A DNA stretch of 64,000 bases from Anaeromusa acidaminophila DSM 3853 (lineage in GTDB: Bacteria > Bacillota > Negativicutes > Anaeromusales > Anaeromusaceae). Each line of letters begins with the position of its first letter. Within the stretch, counting starts at the first letter, position 1. Below the pieces are notes generated by a model, which did no database searches, was not told where the DNA came from, and saw only the letters and a program-made list of their open reading frames with translations. A program made the position numbers and the translations under genes. Below are positions 18,532-25,801 of this stretch, piece by piece. The stretch spans positions 62,001-126,000 of the forward strand of contig NZ_KB894590.1 in the NCBI RefSeq assembly GCF_000374545.1, given 5' to 3'.

Positions 18532-18605
18532 AATTAGTGTTGCGTTAAAATGATAAGCTCATGACCTAAAATATAGTAAGGTCGTTGCTGAGGAGGTATG
18601 GAGAG

Positions 18606-19601
18606 ATGTTTACAGGAAAGTTCCCAACAGTACGTATGCGAAGAAATCGCAGTGATGAATGGAATCGTCGTTTAGTTGCTGAAAATCGATTATCGGTTGA
18701 TGATTTGATTTGGCCTATATTCATACGCGAAGAGGTAGGAGAGCCTGAAGAAATTAAATCAATGCCAGGACAATTTCGTGTAGGCTTGGATCGGTTAGTG
18801 GAACACGTGGGGCCGGCGGTTGAGCTTGGTATTCCGGCAATTGCGCTATTTCCAGTTGTGCCTGGTGATAAAAAAGATGCAATGGGCAGTGAGGCAATAA
18901 ATCCCGATAATATAATTTGCCAAGCCGCGAAGAAACTTAAGCGTGCTTTCCCTGAGATTGGTTTAATCGGGGATGTTGCACTTGATCCATATACAGATCA
19001 TGGGCACGATGGTATTTTGTGTAATGGCTATGTGGATAACGATAGAAGTGTAAATATATTAGCTCAACAAGCGCTTTTACTTGCGAAAGCCGGTATAGAC
19101 ATTATTGCTCCATCGGATATGATGGATGGGCGTGTTGCGGCGATTAGAAGCGCATTAGATGAAGAAGAAATGATTCATACAAGAATTATGTCATACGCTG
19201 CAAAATATGCATCTGGATTTTATGGCCCCTTTCGTGAAGCATTGGGTTCAGGGAAGTCTCTTAAAAATAACAAGAAGACTTACCAGATGGACTCGGCTAA
19301 TGCAGAGGAGGCGTTGCGAGAAGTTGCCATGGATTTAGAGGAAGGCGCTGATATGGTGATGGTTAAACCGGGTCTTCCTTATTTGGATATCATTCAACGA
19401 GTGAAGTCTCGATTTGCTGTGCCTACATTTGCCTATCAAGTTAGTGGGGAATATGCGATGTTAATGTCTGCTATTCGAAATGAGTGGCTTGATCCCAAGA
19501 TTGTTATTGGAGAGAGTTTGCTTGCTTTTAAACGTGCGGGTTGTGATGGTATACTCACTTATTTTGCCTTAGATATAGCAAAACAGTTGCGCAATGAATA
19601 G
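18606..19601 (+). CDS. hemB: Porphobilinogen synthase (delta-aminolevulinate dehydratase)
   Basis: Condenses two 5-aminolevulinate molecules to porphobilinogen in tetrapyrrole synthesis; 331 aa, cytoplasmic. The two active-site lysines are seen in YAAKYASGFYGPFR (Lys200) and MVMVKPG (Lys254). The metal-switch segment reads DVALDPYTDHGHDG, with aspartates where zinc-type enzymes have cysteines, so this is the magnesium-type form seen mainly in Proteobacteria. AGGAGG at 18591-18596 selects ATG 18606. The gene stands alone, away from other hem genes, and is more AT-rich than the efflux region, which hints at acquisition; that is an inference. Confidence 0.95.
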   Translation: MFTGKFPTVRMRRNRSDEWNRRLVAENRLSVDDLIWPIFIREEVGEPEEIKSMPGQFRVGLDRLVEHVGPAVELGIPAIALFPVVPGDKKDAMGSEAINPDNIICQAAKKLKRAFPEIGLIGDVALDPYTDHGHDGILCNGYVDNDRSVNILAQQALLLAKAGIDIIAPSDMMDGRVAAIRSALDEEEMIHTRIMSYAAKYASGFYGPFREALGSGKSLKNNKKTYQMDSANAEEALREVAMDLEEGADMVMVKPGLPYLDIIQRVKSRFAVPTFAYQVSGEYAMLMSAIRNEWLDPKIVIGESLLAFKRAGCDGILTYFALDIAKQLRNE

Positions 19602-19795
19602 GTCAGTGTTGTTCTGAAACAGTTCGGTAAATTTGCAAAACCGGATTGTGAAGCTTGTCCTGAGAAAGTCAATGGCGAGTGAAGCCCTAATGGTTCCTAC
19701 TTTGATTTATGGCGGTATGATTCAATTGAATTTGTACATGTGATTCTGTAGGGTTCCCCTCCATCAATCAAATCCGGATTTTGTCCAAATTATAA
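19602..19795 (+). other. Possible decayed coding remnant after hemB
   Basis: Between hemB and its terminator the same reading frame stays largely open, interrupted by only two stops (near 19679 and 19749), and reads protein-like stretches such as FGKFAKPDCEACPEKVNGE and SPNGSYFDLWRYDSIEFVHV. It was not recognised. It may be a degraded gene or chance. Nothing else was seen here. Confidence 0.25.
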
Positions 19796-19842
19796 AACCC
19801 GCTAATATCTGCGTTTGTTAGGTATTAGCGGGTTCTTGTTTT
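19796..19842 (+). terminator. Rho-independent terminator downstream of hemB
   Basis: A 12-bp perfect stem (19796-19807 with 19823-19834) with a 15-base loop is followed by CTTGTTTT. Confidence 0.8.
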
Positions 19843-19973
19843 GGGGAACAATAGAATTGATAAAGAAATGCTCTTGTTCTATTTTTCGAGAGTATAGCTT
19901 TGGACTAAAGTCATGTTTTTGAACATAAATAGCAAAATAGTGTATAAATTAGTATGAATATGCAAAGCGTTGT

Positions 19974-20002
19974 TTGACTGTTGTTTAAAAATGGATTAGA
20001 CT
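19974..20002 (+). promoter_or_regulatory. Promoter of riboswitch transcript
   Basis: TTGACT (19974-19979), a 17-base spacer and TAGACT (19997-20002), about 25 bases before the aptamer. Confidence 0.6.
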
Positions 20003-20026
20003 GTAAAAAATGAATAAAAACATTGG

Positions 20027-20112
20027 ATGTAAAAGGCAAACTTGCTGAAAAGCAAGGACGCAAAGCCGTGGGTCTAAGGACGGAATGTCTATGATTGCCA
20101 GGTTGCCGGTTT
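20027..20112 (+). promoter_or_regulatory. Cyclic-di-GMP-I (GEMM-I) riboswitch
   Basis: The conserved core is present in order: AAAAGGCAAAC, a GAAA tetraloop hairpin, GGACGCAAAGCC, GGGTCTA, then GATTGCCAGGTTGCC. GGCAA (20035-20039) pairs with TTGCC (20103-20107) to form P1. A terminator hairpin begins 18 bases later. GCCGGTT (20105-20111) could otherwise pair with AACCGGC (20144-20150) inside that terminator, so ligand binding, which favours P1, should favour termination. A chemoreceptor gene lies downstream. Confidence 0.92.
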
Positions 20113-20129
20113 GAATGCTTACTAATGCG

Positions 20130-20157
20130 ACGCCGGTTAAAGTAACCGGCGTTTTTA
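20130..20157 (+). terminator. Riboswitch expression-platform terminator
   Basis: Stem ACGCCGGTTA / TAACCGGCGT (20130-20139 with 20143-20152) followed by TTTTT. Confidence 0.88.
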
Positions 20158-20245
20158 ATTTGCATTTTATCCTAAAGAGTATCAGTATATACTCTTCAAA
20201 ATGGATTTGAGAAAAAGTGAATAGAAATGTTGAATGTCAATGTCG

Positions 20246-20291
20246 ACAGGTGTTTGAAAGAGGAATTCTTTTTCAAATACCTGTTTTTATT
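20246..20291 (+). terminator. Second terminator hairpin in the chemoreceptor leader
   Basis: A 14-bp stem with one G-U pair (20246-20259 with 20269-20283) followed by TTTTATTTT. It lies between the riboswitch terminator and the coding start. An additional short palindrome, AAGAGTAT/ATACTCTT, sits near 20175-20196. Confidence 0.75.
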
Positions 20292-20335
20292 TTGCAAATG
20301 GTACTGACTGGCGAATTTTTCAAAGGAAGGTGAAA

Positions 20336-22417
20336 ATGGTGATGAAGGTAAGGCGGATTTTTCAACCAGGAATTTTTATTATGAGTCGATTCCGCTTAAT
20401 GGCTAAGTTTTTGATGGTGAGCTTAATTTTAGTAGTGTTACTGAGCGTCGCGCTCTTTCAGTTTTTTTCGGGGAATTATGCAAGCAAAGATTTTTCACAA
20501 AAAGAAGTATATGGGGTTGAGTATGCTCAATTATCTCAACGATTAACTAGGCATATTCAAGAGTATTGGTTTTTGCAAAAAGAAGGTGCGGCTAACCTTG
20601 TAGAAGCGGATTTGATCGAGCTGAAAAAGTTAGACCAAACGTATGAACATGTTTTAGATTCTTCTCAAGAAAATAAACAAGTATCAAAGAATATCGAAGA
20701 ATGTGAAGCGTTATGGCATAAAGTCGAAAAAGGAAATACGAATTCATATGAAAATTTGTCAGCGGCGCTTACAACGTTGCATACCAATATCTCTGATAAC
20801 TCCAATTTAACCCTAGATCCGGACTTGGATTCGTATTATTGTATGGATGTAGTGATGTTTCGCAGCCTTGCTATTGCGGAATCTCTATACAAAATTAGAG
20901 AAGTTGTAGCAGCTCAGCCGCCGGAAGGATTATCATACAGTGAGCGGAAAAAACTAATTGCCTTGAGCTCCCAGTTAGCAATTTTGGTTGACACTGTTAA
21001 CACCGATATGCAAACAGGAAGCGAATTTAATGAGGTGAAAGGTCAAAGTATACTGAAAGACATTGGGGTTCCAATAAAAGATTTCACGAAAATCCAAAGC
21101 AAATTTTTAAAGAAGCTTGATGAAGAGCTTGAAAAAGAAAAAGGCTATGTTCAATTGGATTTTCCAGACATTGATCAAGCCATTTCCGCGAATGATCAGT
21201 TGTTTGCCTCCATAGGAGGAGCTTTGTGGAATTTATGTAATGCGCGTGTACTGCAATACGAGCAGCAGGCGAATATAGTCATTATTGCTATTCTTGTTTC
21301 ACTGCCTGTCTTAGCGTATGTATGTATTGCATTAGTTTTATCCATTACTAATGCTGTTTCTATAATTGGAGAGAATCTAGAAAAAATTCAAAATGGAGAT
21401 CTGTCGGTACATATTGAACTGCATTCGCAAGATGAATTGAGTAGTATCTCCAAAGGGATTAATCGAATGCTTGCTCACATGAGAGATATTTTGCAAAGAA
21501 TATCCGCACAGTCAGAAGGGTTGATTATTGCTTCTAAAGAGTTGTCAGTTAGTTCCGAGCAATCAGCATTGTTGGCTGATGATGTAGCAGATGCTACGTC
21601 GCAAGTGTCACGAGGGATAGAAATGCTTTCGGCTTCTACGGAAGAATTAAACGCTTCTGCTGGAAATGTGGAAGCTAATATTGAAAAGATGGCTCTTTTT
21701 TCCGAAGAGGGACGAAGTGTTGCGGAAAATATCAAAGAGCGTGCAGAAACACTAGAGGGAAATGCGCACGCTTCCAGAACAAGGGCAGTTTCGTTATACG
21801 ATGAAATGAATAAAAGTATGCTTCGCTCTATTGATGAGTCCAAAATTGTTGAAGAAATATCCTCTATGGTGGAAGTAATTGCAACTATTTCGAAGCAAAC
21901 TAATTTGTTGGCTCTGAATGCAGCGATTGAAGCGGCGAGAGCTGGAGAAAGCGGCAAAGGATTTGGCGTTGTCGCGGAGGAGGTTCGAAAGCTGGCGGAA
22001 GCGTCTGCGACGGCGGTAGGAGAGATTCAGTCAATGACGCAAGCTGTCCAAAATACGATATCAAAATTGGTGGAAAGCAGCCAAGAGATACTAGGGTTTA
22101 TCAATGGAACCGTAAATGAAGATTATAACTCCTTTGTTAAAGTAGGAGAACAATATAAGGAAGATGCAAAAGCTTTTTTTGATACGACGGAAAATATTAG
22201 CGCTCAATTGCAGCAAGTGTCTCATGAAGTAAAAGAGATATCTCAAGTCATTGAATCGGTCGCTGAAGTGATCTTGGAGAATTCGTCACAAGCGCAAGGG
22301 ATATCGTTGAACACGGCAGGAGTAAGCGAGAAAATGAAGTCGATTCAATCTTCCTCCGTATCGTTGGAACAGATTGCAGGCAAGATGGGAAGTTTGGTGG
22401 TTCAGTTTAAACTGTAA
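20336..22417 (+). CDS. Methyl-accepting chemotaxis protein with large periplasmic sensor
   Basis: Chemoreceptor of 693 aa. TM1 is at about residues 19-42; a helical periplasmic domain of about 270 residues follows with no obvious named fold; TM2 is near 313-340; then HAMP and a cytoplasmic coiled-coil signalling domain with the CheA/CheW-binding tip [22 protein letters not shown] 20336 is chosen with AAGGAAGG just upstream; GTG 20330 and ATG 20342 are alternatives. The transcript begins with a c-di-GMP riboswitch and two terminator hairpins, tying expression of this receptor to the sessile/motile second messenger. Confidence 0.93.
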
Positions 22418-22497: not shown

Positions 22498-22551
22498 AAA
22501 ACAGCTCCAGGGACTTCTTTTTCTAAAGAAAGTTCCCTGGAGCTGTTTTTA
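22498..22551. terminator. Bidirectional terminator between chemoreceptor and activase genes
   Basis: A stem of more than 20 bp, AAAACAGCTCCAGGGA paired with TCCCTGGAGCTGTTTT, with TTCTTT/AAAGAA continuing inside. The T run serves the plus strand and the A run the minus strand. Confidence 0.88.
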
Positions 22552-23448
22552 AGAATAACTGACAACCTCTAATCCCTTGCAAGCGAGTTTTTCTTTTATC
22601 CCCTGTAATTCGTCAGCTGTGGGCGCTGTAAAGCTCGTAAATGGAAGGCCAAGAGCTTCCATTTTTTCTTTTCCCAGTGTGTGATAGGGGAGGAGTTCAA
22701 TTTTTCGGACTCGCGTTTGCTGAAGCAAAAAGCGGCTTAGTTGTTCGAGGTTTTCATCGTCAATATTGACTTCGCGGATTGCAGGCATGCGAATGACGAT
22801 ATTGTCATTGAAATAGGAGGCCGCTTTGATGTTTTGCAGGATGGTTGTATTGTCTATTCCGGTGAAGTAGCGGTGCTTGGTAGGATCCATTACTTTGAGA
22901 TCAAAAAAGATATGATCTAGTTTTTCAATAATATCTTTGCAGTTAGTGAAGTTGAATTGAGCGCAGCTTTCGACGGCTGTAGCTATGCCGAGGTTTTGGC
23001 ATTGGTTTACTAATGCGCGCAAAGCTTCTTCTTGATAGAATGGTTCTCCCCCGGAAAAAGTGACGCCGCCCCCGGATTCCAGATAAAAAAGAAAGTCTTT
23101 TTTTAGTTGCTGCATTAGAACGTCAATACTCTGACTCTCGCCCATTTTCTGGCGTGCTTTATTGAGGCAGACGGACACGCAGGTAAAGCATTGCTTGCAG
23201 GTTGAAGACGCAAAACGAACCTGATTATCTTCCAGAAAAATCGCACCAGCGGGGCAGTGAGAAACACACTGTTGGCAGTGGGTGCATTTGTGGGCTAGAA
23301 ACATCAATTCTGGATGAGGGGACCAGGATTCTGGATTTGCGCACCAGCGGCAACGAAGCGGGCATCCTTTAAAAAACACGGTGCTGCGGATGCCGTCACC
23401 ATCGTTGACCGATAAGCGTTGGATTTGAAAGACGTTACATGCTTTCAT
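22549..23448 (-). CDS. Glycyl radical enzyme activase (radical SAM, two extra 4Fe-4S clusters)
   Basis: Generates the glycyl radical on its partner using S-adenosylmethionine; 299 aa. The radical-SAM cluster motif is GCPLRCRWC near residue 29. A ferredoxin-like insert adds CTHCQQCVSHCP and CKQCFTCVSVC, as in activases for glycerol dehydratase-type enzymes rather than classical PFL. GGGVTFSGGEP is the SAM-binding glycine motif. ATG 23448 overlaps the end of the partner gene by 14 bases; TTG 23463 would add five residues. The overlap implies coupled translation. Confidence 0.93.
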   Translation of the reverse strand: MKACNVFQIQRLSVNDGDGIRSTVFFKGCPLRCRWCANPESWSPHPELMFLAHKCTHCQQCVSHCPAGAIFLEDNQVRFASSTCKQCFTCVSVCLNKARQKMGESQSIDVLMQQLKKDFLFYLESGGGVTFSGGEPFYQEEALRALVNQCQNLGIATAVESCAQFNFTNCKDIIEKLDHIFFDLKVMDPTKHRYFTGIDNTTILQNIKAASYFNDNIVIRMPAIREVNIDDENLEQLSRFLLQQTRVRKIELLPYHTLGKEKMEALGLPFTSFTAPTADELQGIKEKLACKGLEVVSYS

Positions 23449-25801
23449 AAGTGGTTCGCTCAATGATGGCGTCTTGCGCTTTGCGAGAAAGATTTACGAA
23501 TTGTGTGCTGTAGCCGGCAACACGGACAAGCAAGTCTCGATAATTTTCCGGGTGCTCTTGAGCGCTGCGTAGAATCTCTGGAGAAATGACATTGAATTGA
23601 ATATGAAAAGCTCCCAGTGAAAAATAAGCGCGAATTAAGGAGGCCAGGTTATTGAGGCCACGATTCGTCTCTAACAGAGTTGGCGAGAGTTTCACATTGA
23701 CGAGTGTTCCGCCGCTGTGAATGTCATGGTTGATTTTTGCTGCAGAGCGCATGGCGGCGGTGGGGCTGGTTATATCGGTGCCTGCATGCGGCGAGACGCC
23801 TTCGGTAAGGGGCGTGCCTGCTTTGCGTCCTTCCGGCGTTGCGCCGACTACTGAGCCGGCAGGGATGTAGTTGGAAATACCCATAAAGGCTGAGTTGAAC
23901 TTCGCTCCGAAAATATCGGTGTATTGCGTGATTTCCTTATGATAGAAATCGGAAATTCCTGTGGCGAGAGCGTCAACTTCATCCAGGTCATTGCCGTATT
24001 TGGGACATTGCAAGGCGGCCTGCCGGAGTTCTTCAAATCCGTCCCAGTCCTGTTCCAGAGCTGCAGCAAAATCTTGCAATTTGTACGCTTGGTCTTCAAA
24101 AACAAGCTTGCGAATGGCCGCTAGAGCATTGGCGCTGTCTGCAAGGCCGATGCCTGTGAGCACAGGGCCTAGGCAGTATTTGGCGCCACCCCGGCTGAGA
24201 TCCCGGCCTTTTTCCATGCAGCCGTCCACTAAGAGAGAAAGGTAAGGCCGTGGCACAATTTCAGCATGTACTTTCTGTGCGGTAAGCGAGCCGATGATGC
24301 CGATTTTTATCAAATGAGCCGCTTGGCGAAAGAATAGCGACTTGAATTCTTCGAAATTGGTACTGTCTGCGAGGTTTGTCGCCAAGCCCATTTGTTTGCC
24401 GTTTATGCGGCTGATTCCGCCGCTGAGCGTATATTCCATAGCGGCTGCCAAATTAATATTGACGGCGGACGTCCATTCTCCGACTTTGCGAAAATGGGGA
24501 ACAACGCAGCCGCAATTGCTCCAGTCACGGGCGTCCTCAGGGGAGAGGCCCGCAGCTAAAAGCATTTCCGAGCCGACGCGATCATTGTGGATAGCGGGGA
24601 ATCCTGTCCCGCAGCGAACCAGCTTGCAAACGGCCTGCAAAAATTCGGGAGGACAATTGGGGTGAATGCGAACGCTAAGTCCGGGTTGATGCGTTTTGAC
24701 TCGTTCCGTCGCTTCCAGGCAAAGATAAGATATTTCGTTGGTAGCGTCGCTGCCGTCACGCTTACGTCCGCCCACGGTGAGGTTTTGAAAAGAATTGTAG
24801 CCAGCAAAAAATTGAGCCGTATTGCTGGAAATAGCCCAAACCCACTCGGATAATTTGAGCCAAAGGCATTCGATACGCTCCAGCGCTTCTTCCCGGGTGA
24901 GGAGACCGGCGTTTATATCTTTTTCATAGAAAGGGTACATATATTGATCGAATCGTCCCAGATTTAAAGCCAGTGAATTCTCAGAAAGGATAGAGCCCAA
25001 TTGCGTAAACCATACGCACTGGATGGCTTCTTTGAAGGTTTGCGGCGGATTTTCAGGTACACGGCGGCAAATGGAAGCGATTTCCTCTAGCTCAAGGCGG
25101 CGAGAGGGATCGGCGGTTGCCGCCGCTAATGTGTCGGCTTTTTCCGCATATCGGTTAGCGAGCGTGATGATTCCTTCAGATACAATAATGGCGCTGCGGT
25201 AAAAATCCATTTGTTCCAGTTCATCTGTATTAGTAGGAGAGAGCTTGCGTAGAGCGGCAATCGCTTCGTCACGAAAGCCTCCGAAACCTTTTTGGAAAAC
25301 AAGATCCTGATAATCCGCAGTTACCTCGCCGACGGCGCTGCGCCATTTGGAATCGTTGTCGACAATGCCTGTATCGACGAGTACGCGGGCAGTATCTTCG
25401 TCAAGACGGGCTAAAAAGGTTTCTTCCAGCGACTTTCCTTTCCAATAGGGAAAGATTTCATCTCGCAGAGACTTTTTGGCTTCCGGTGAGATCGTATAAG
25501 CGTCTTGGGTGCGTTCGGCAAAGGTATCCATTTCCTGTTCGACCCATTGCCAGGAATATTCCGGGCAAATAATGCCGCTGCGGCGAAATTCGCCGATGCT
25601 GCCGACGAGGAGTTCTCCCTCAAAGATAACAGGATCAATAGCGTTACAGACCGCTCGAAATGCTTTGGCGCGGCGCAAGATAACGGTTTCTCCTTCCGTT
25701 TCTTTGTGAGAATCTGTAAAAATACGAGCTCGCTCGATGCTAATCGAAGGCGTTGTTTCAATGTACTGCTTTTTTATTTCAGCGATGCGAGGTGTTGTCA
25801 T
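23435..25801 (-). CDS. Glycyl radical enzyme of the PFL/dehydratase superfamily, substrate unknown
   Basis: Radical enzyme of 788 aa. The glycyl radical site is RVAGYSTQFVNLS (Gly763) and the thiyl cysteine lies in NCGCVVPH (Cys432). Dehydratase, lyase and decarboxylase subfamilies usually show Cys-X-Glu here; this protein has Cys-Val-Val, so the general-base glutamate is missing and it should not be called a glycerol, choline or hydroxyproline enzyme. PFL-type proteins have Cys-Cys, also absent. AAAGGAGGAG precedes the ATG. The activase overlaps the 3' end and a GntR/FCD regulator lies 27 bp upstream on the same strand. There are no microcompartment genes. Confidence 0.93.
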   Translation of the reverse strand: MTTPRIAEIKKQYIETTPSISIERARIFTDSHKETEGETVILRRAKAFRAVCNAIDPVIFEGELLVGSIGEFRRSGIICPEYSWQWVEQEMDTFAERTQDAYTISPEAKKSLRDEIFPYWKGKSLEETFLARLDEDTARVLVDTGIVDNDSKWRSAVGEVTADYQDLVFQKGFGGFRDEAIAALRKLSPTNTDELEQMDFYRSAIIVSEGIITLANRYAEKADTLAAATADPSRRLELEEIASICRRVPENPPQTFKEAIQCVWFTQLGSILSENSLALNLGRFDQYMYPFYEKDINAGLLTREEALERIECLWLKLSEWVWAISSNTAQFFAGYNSFQNLTVGGRKRDGSDATNEISYLCLEATERVKTHQPGLSVRIHPNCPPEFLQAVCKLVRCGTGFPAIHNDRVGSEMLLAAGLSPEDARDWSNCGCVVPHFRKVGEWTSAVNINLAAAMEYTLSGGISRINGKQMGLATNLADSTNFEEFKSLFFRQAAHLIKIGIIGSLTAQKVHAEIVPRPYLSLLVDGCMEKGRDLSRGGAKYCLGPVLTGIGLADSANALAAIRKLVFEDQAYKLQDFAAALEQDWDGFEELRQAALQCPKYGNDLDEVDALATGISDFYHKEITQYTDIFGAKFNSAFMGISNYIPAGSVVGATPEGRKAGTPLTEGVSPHAGTDITSPTAAMRSAAKINHDIHSGGTLVNVKLSPTLLETNRGLNNLASLIRAYFSLGAFHIQFNVISPEILRSAQEHPENYRDLLVRVAGYSTQFVNLSRKAQDAIIERTTYESM

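Follow-up and report, generated by a model that had tools for sequence, protein, structure and literature searches.

The window analysed here, a 64,000-nucleotide stretch of the Anaeromusa acidaminophila DSM 3853 genome (G000; contig NZ_KB894590.1, positions 62,001 to 126,000), encodes a chemoreceptor with Pfam HAMP and MCPsignal domains (open frame 20330-22417, likely start ATG 20336). A c-di-GMP riboswitch, followed by two terminators in series and then the chemoreceptor gene, was confirmed at this locus, with the following features:

19974..20002, + strand: sigma-A-type promoter, TTGACT-17 nt-TAGACT (sequence scan; score 12.1)
20025..20110, + strand: c-di-GMP-I (GEMM-I) aptamer (RF01051, 85 bits, model 1-87 of 87)
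20105..20110, + strand: GCCGGU, the 3' edge of the aptamer and 5' half of the predicted antiterminator (pairs with 20132-20137 in nascent-transcript folds)
20129..20153, + strand: terminator T1, the expression platform, whose 5' arm holds the other antiterminator half, 20132-20137 (terminator scan, folds)
20159..20244, + strand: T1-H2 spacer (searches for a promoter, second aptamer, conserved leader peptide and recurring antiterminator negative)
20245..20285, + strand: terminator-like hairpin H2, followed by TTTATTTT (terminator scan, folds; retained in G002)
20336..22417, + strand: chemoreceptor gene (HAMP, MCPsignal), with ribosome-binding site AGGAAGG just 5' (sequence, frame, Pfam)

Transcription would start near 20009. 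A scan of 19500-20700 returned five terminator-like sites, against 0.9 ± 1.1 in shuffled sequences. Both T1 (an 11-bp stem plus T tail, computed dG -16.3 kcal/mol) and H2 (an AU-rich 18-bp stem well 5' of the ribosome-binding site, computed dG -23.0 kcal/mol) were found by the scanner and by folding, and their stems are separated by 91 nt. This agrees with the first-pass annotation, which had described two successive terminators about 90 bases apart. For the best-placed stems, the terminator score was 18.5 for H2 and 14.4 for T1.

Within the genus, the same receptor is found in G002 alone (96% identity over the N-terminal part), with weak matches only in G001 and G003. More distant receptors, 49% identical over the N-terminal part, occur in G163 and G164, which belong to another family; no c-di-GMP-I aptamer was found in the searched stretches of their loci. 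The G000 and G002 leaders are collinear from 19920 to H2, and the two genomes are unrelated 5' of 19920 (112/260 sites differ). Genes for a glycyl radical enzyme and its activase lie 3' of the receptor in convergent orientation in both genomes. The receptor, its leader and the enzyme genes are thus kept as a group in both genomes, next to different upstream neighbours. In the window, the glycyl radical enzyme, a member of the PFL2-3 family, and its activase occupy 22549-25801 on the - strand; the glycyl radical enzyme does not reach the cut-off of any named enzyme type shown (for choline lyase, it scores 727 against 1050). Its substrate may be what the receptor senses. The 5' neighbour of the leader is hemB (ALAD, 18585-19601), for which 53-base DNA matches were found in G001 and G003 and none in G002; a full DNA-level match is absent from all three of these same-genus genomes.

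Between G000 and G002, the promoter stretch 19974-20010 carries 1 substitution in 37 positions, and differences amount to 4/86 in the aptamer, 8/86 in the spacer, 3/50 in H2 and 7/272 at fourfold sites of the gene. The H2 hairpin is kept in G002, with one pair improved (G-U to G-C) and one broken (U-A to C-A). Immediately 3' of H2, 13/23 sites differ and 31 indel bases are present: the stretch from H2 to the ribosome-binding site has been replaced in G002 and is 31 bases longer. The overall divergence is too small for any claim that selection keeps H2.

The aptamer match is strong. At 20025-20110 (+ strand), RF01051 scores 85.0 bits (gathering score 35; E 2.5e-15) over the full model, bearing out the proposed cyclic-di-GMP riboswitch identity. 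In the parts of the Bc1 riboswitch study used here, G20, A47 and C92 (Vc2 numbering) are given as the ligand contacts for c-di-GMP rather than cGAMP (PMC11218506). By eye, the bases at what are probably these positions look kept in the RF01051 alignment.

To follow the switch logic, transcripts of increasing length were folded. Minimum-energy folds contain the pairing 20105-20110:20132-20137 when the transcript ends at 20138, 20140, 20143 or 20147, and lack it when the end is at 20120, 20128, 20153 or 20158; in these growing-transcript folds, the antiterminator GCCGGU holds the T1 5' arm until the T1 3' arm is transcribed. The pairing takes in what is, by Vc2 numbering, probably the ligand-contacting C, so ligand binding and antitermination should be mutually exclusive and the predicted sign is OFF. 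Thus, c-di-GMP is predicted to switch the gene off at T1, a prediction supported in silico, where the alternative pairing upholds the earlier claim that the aptamer edge competes with an antiterminator. The duplex energy of the aptamer 3' edge with the T1 5' arm is not better than that of shuffles (103/300 as good). In the minimum-energy fold of the full T1 leader without ligand, T1 is formed, and antitermination must therefore be kinetic. An antiterminator is clear in some of the other c-di-GMP-I leaders of the genus and missing from others, including several paralogs, so the OFF sign does not extend to all of these leaders.

Taken as a whole, the leader probably combines a c-di-GMP-I OFF riboswitch that acts on transcription with a second intrinsic terminator 3' of it. 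The elements, the order in which they stand and the alternative pairing are seen in silico; the direction of the ligand response is a prediction. Without c-di-GMP, 20105-20110 would pair with the T1 5' arm and polymerase would pass T1; with c-di-GMP, the same bases would be held within the aptamer and T1 would form. Polymerases past T1 would then meet H2, which most likely stops a constant fraction of transcripts at any ligand level and would keep receptor expression low; we infer this constancy, and the efficiency of H2 as a terminator.

The first-pass annotation held that either a further promoter or another antitermination signal was required within 20158-20300, and proposed a covariance search for a second aptamer there. 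The best promoter score in 20140-20330 (8.8) is that expected from shuffles (8.7 ± 1.9), the upstream promoter scoring 12.1. Besides the RF01051 aptamer, none of 4227 Rfam families matched 19900-20400, an interval that contains 20158-20300, beyond chance, relaxed E-values included. An antiterminator for the H2 5' arm does not recur: 292, 73 and 313 of 500 shuffles were as good or better in G000, G002 and G163, respectively. A complement to the H2 3' arm in the G000 spacer is better than average (17/500 shuffles as good), and is absent in G002 (331/500) and G163 (346/500); the G000 complement may leave some room for an H2 antiterminator. A required second promoter or antitermination signal between the terminators is therefore not supported. 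Nor is it needed, since intrinsic terminators leak and polymerase can pass T1 and H2 with no extra promoter. A leaky second terminator suffices to explain read-through of H2 and is the simplest answer.

Several other candidate elements in the spacer were rejected. Small frames with ATGs at 20201 and 20227 were considered as a leader peptide, and both ATGs are lost in G002. The stretch 20175-20196 was considered as an RNA hairpin, of which one pair is broken in G002, and as a DNA operator, for which arms of at least 8 arise in 41/2000 shuffles. Similar stretches at 11 fetched loci comprised 8 in long open frames, 2 that are this leader and its ortholog, and 1 outside a long frame; with 8 of the 11 inside long open frames, no regulon is indicated. 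ANTAR antitermination, for which the consensus is two hexaloop hairpins before a terminator, was considered and dropped: one small hexaloop hairpin was seen by eye at 20235-20248, and no second. The genome encodes one ANTAR protein.

The closest competitor to the riboswitch with a leaky second terminator is that H2 acts as an attenuator under regulation of its own and predates the riboswitch; the receptor would then be expressed only when low c-di-GMP coincides with a second signal that opens H2. This is unlikely but has some comparative support. The G163 and G164 orthologs show a promoter, a leader of ~80 nt, a 23-bp hairpin with a T tail and then the gene, with no riboswitch in the leader; this relative gives the sole hint, and a weak one, that H2 may be an older and separate attenuator. 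These leaders and the window spacer have in common TGTCAATG just before the hairpin and AAAAAGT-AATA, and the spacer alone aligns to the G163-type leader with a similarity of 136 against 100 ± 12 in shuffles (2/500 as good). Weaker relatives, L097 and L098, also place a hairpin between promoter and gene, that of L098 being recognized by eye after the hairpin scan missed it. However, the leader similarity weakens once the hairpin is included (22/500 shuffles as good), no sequence common to H2 and the G163 stem is evident, and no H2 antiterminator recurs in G000, G002 and G163. Several of 15 further homolog matches inspected are without such a leader hairpin, and the G000-G002 differences in the spacer exceed those at the fourfold sites of the gene (8/86 against 7/272). 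General enrichment of leader hairpins before chemoreceptors was likewise not shown: hairpins of at least 14 bp lying at most 60 nt from the start precede 7/79 chemoreceptors and 8/145 other genes, which is no clear enrichment, and 8/80 and 7/144 once a misfiled G163 ortholog is moved. Because such hairpins are not clearly commoner for chemoreceptors, the greater age of H2 stays a hint. The fuller evolutionary version, in which H2 and the spacer form an old attenuator with its own trigger and the riboswitch was placed in front later, making a two-input AND gate on the chemoreceptor, is less likely still.

It is improbable that the receptor is transcribed from another promoter within the spacer, with the riboswitch transcript mostly separate. 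Such a promoter would bypass T1, and a weak candidate exists (TTTATC-16-TATACT at 20166-20193), but it accounts for the score of 8.8 that equals the shuffle average and drops to 6.0 in G002; its transcript would still meet H2, and in G163 the promoter likewise lies 5' of the hairpin. A role of H2 in stabilizing or processing the mRNA leader, rather than as a terminator in the cell, fits its AU-rich 18-bp stem well 5' of the ribosome-binding site, but is likewise improbable given the T tail and a terminator score above that of T1.

The combination of a c-di-GMP-I aptamer with a second strong hairpin is rare among related leaders. The genome contains 8 c-di-GMP-I aptamers, and G001, G002 and G003 contain 8, 9 and 5. 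Among 29 leaders of the genus, this one included, a second strong terminator-like hairpin precedes the gene only here and in the G002 ortholog, and no paralog leader has one as strong as H2. An additional hairpin is present within the scanned 260 nt of four other leaders; in three of them it is weak (-3.6 to -6.7 kcal/mol), and in the fourth (-15.3 kcal/mol; G002 at 1890176) it falls past the probable start of the gene. A rough motif count over loci L001-L121, a partial census of the genomes searched, gave 64 distinct aptamers, of which 59 have a readable downstream frame; the five without a frame were left out of the hairpin count. By a loose rule, 10/59 leaders have at least two hairpins, and 4/59 have two that each reach -12 kcal/mol or lower: this locus, the G002 ortholog, L031, whose downstream frame is 632 nt away, and L063. 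The last, in G017 (another family), carries two strong hairpins, separated by 14 nt, upstream of a gene whose product looks secreted.

Other arrangements were also observed. At L050 (G040), two near-identical c-di-GMP-I aptamers stand in tandem, each with its own terminator-like hairpin. At L087 (G000:C9:61315-61400), just beyond the left edge of the window, no terminator was detected between a c-di-GMP-I aptamer and a short frame, so this aptamer may act on translation. L072, L079, L082 and L087, in four genomes of the genus, share a similar long leader in which a hairpin with a T tail immediately precedes the gene of a 243-residue ABC-type ATPase; this place had no Rfam match in L087, the one of the four searched. 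Similar aptamers are present in three plasmid records, where the downstream genes are other ones or unlisted.

A published system with the same layout is Bc1-mcpE of Bacillus thuringiensis BMB171, in which a c-di-GMP-I aptamer and two terminators precede a chemoreceptor gene. In the sections of that report drawn on here, each of the two terminators stops transcription in vitro, although full-length RNA is also produced; no promoter lies within the leader; in vivo, T2 is the stronger of the two and masks the response to c-di-GMP; and a dual terminator in one expression platform is described as rarely seen (PMC11218506). The two leaders have in common the aptamer class, two serial intrinsic terminators and a chemoreceptor 3'. 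In the leader analysed here, no internal promoter scored above shuffles. They probably differ in the sign at T1 and in the length of the gap: in Bc1, c-di-GMP unfolds T1 and the terminators are 28 bp apart, whereas here c-di-GMP is predicted to favour T1 and the gap is 91 nt (PMC11218506). In Bc1, a zinc regulator also binds the stretch that separates the two terminators (PMC11218506). The two leaders are compared by layout, without a claim of common descent. Cd1 of Clostridioides difficile also has a c-di-GMP-I aptamer; its report sets an OFF member against an ON member and describes a weak or absent P1, and the portion used here makes no mention of a second terminator (PMC9262584). Among titles and abstract starts in the open-access literature, no further dual-terminator c-di-GMP riboswitch was found besides Bc1 (PMC11218506). 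The description of tandem chemoreceptor control as unusual thus holds insofar as the layout is rare, but it is not without precedent.

With Bc1-mcpE already published, the main contribution of this locus is one more instance of a rare layout. Its occurrence beyond the Bacillus cereus group suggests a recurring arrangement rather than an oddity confined to a single species group. It also offers a test bed for the question raised by Bc1, namely what effect a ligand-controlled terminator has when a second terminator follows. Should H2 be an old attenuator after all, the leader would form an AND gate, combining low c-di-GMP with a second signal, on a chemoreceptor adjoining a glycyl radical enzyme.
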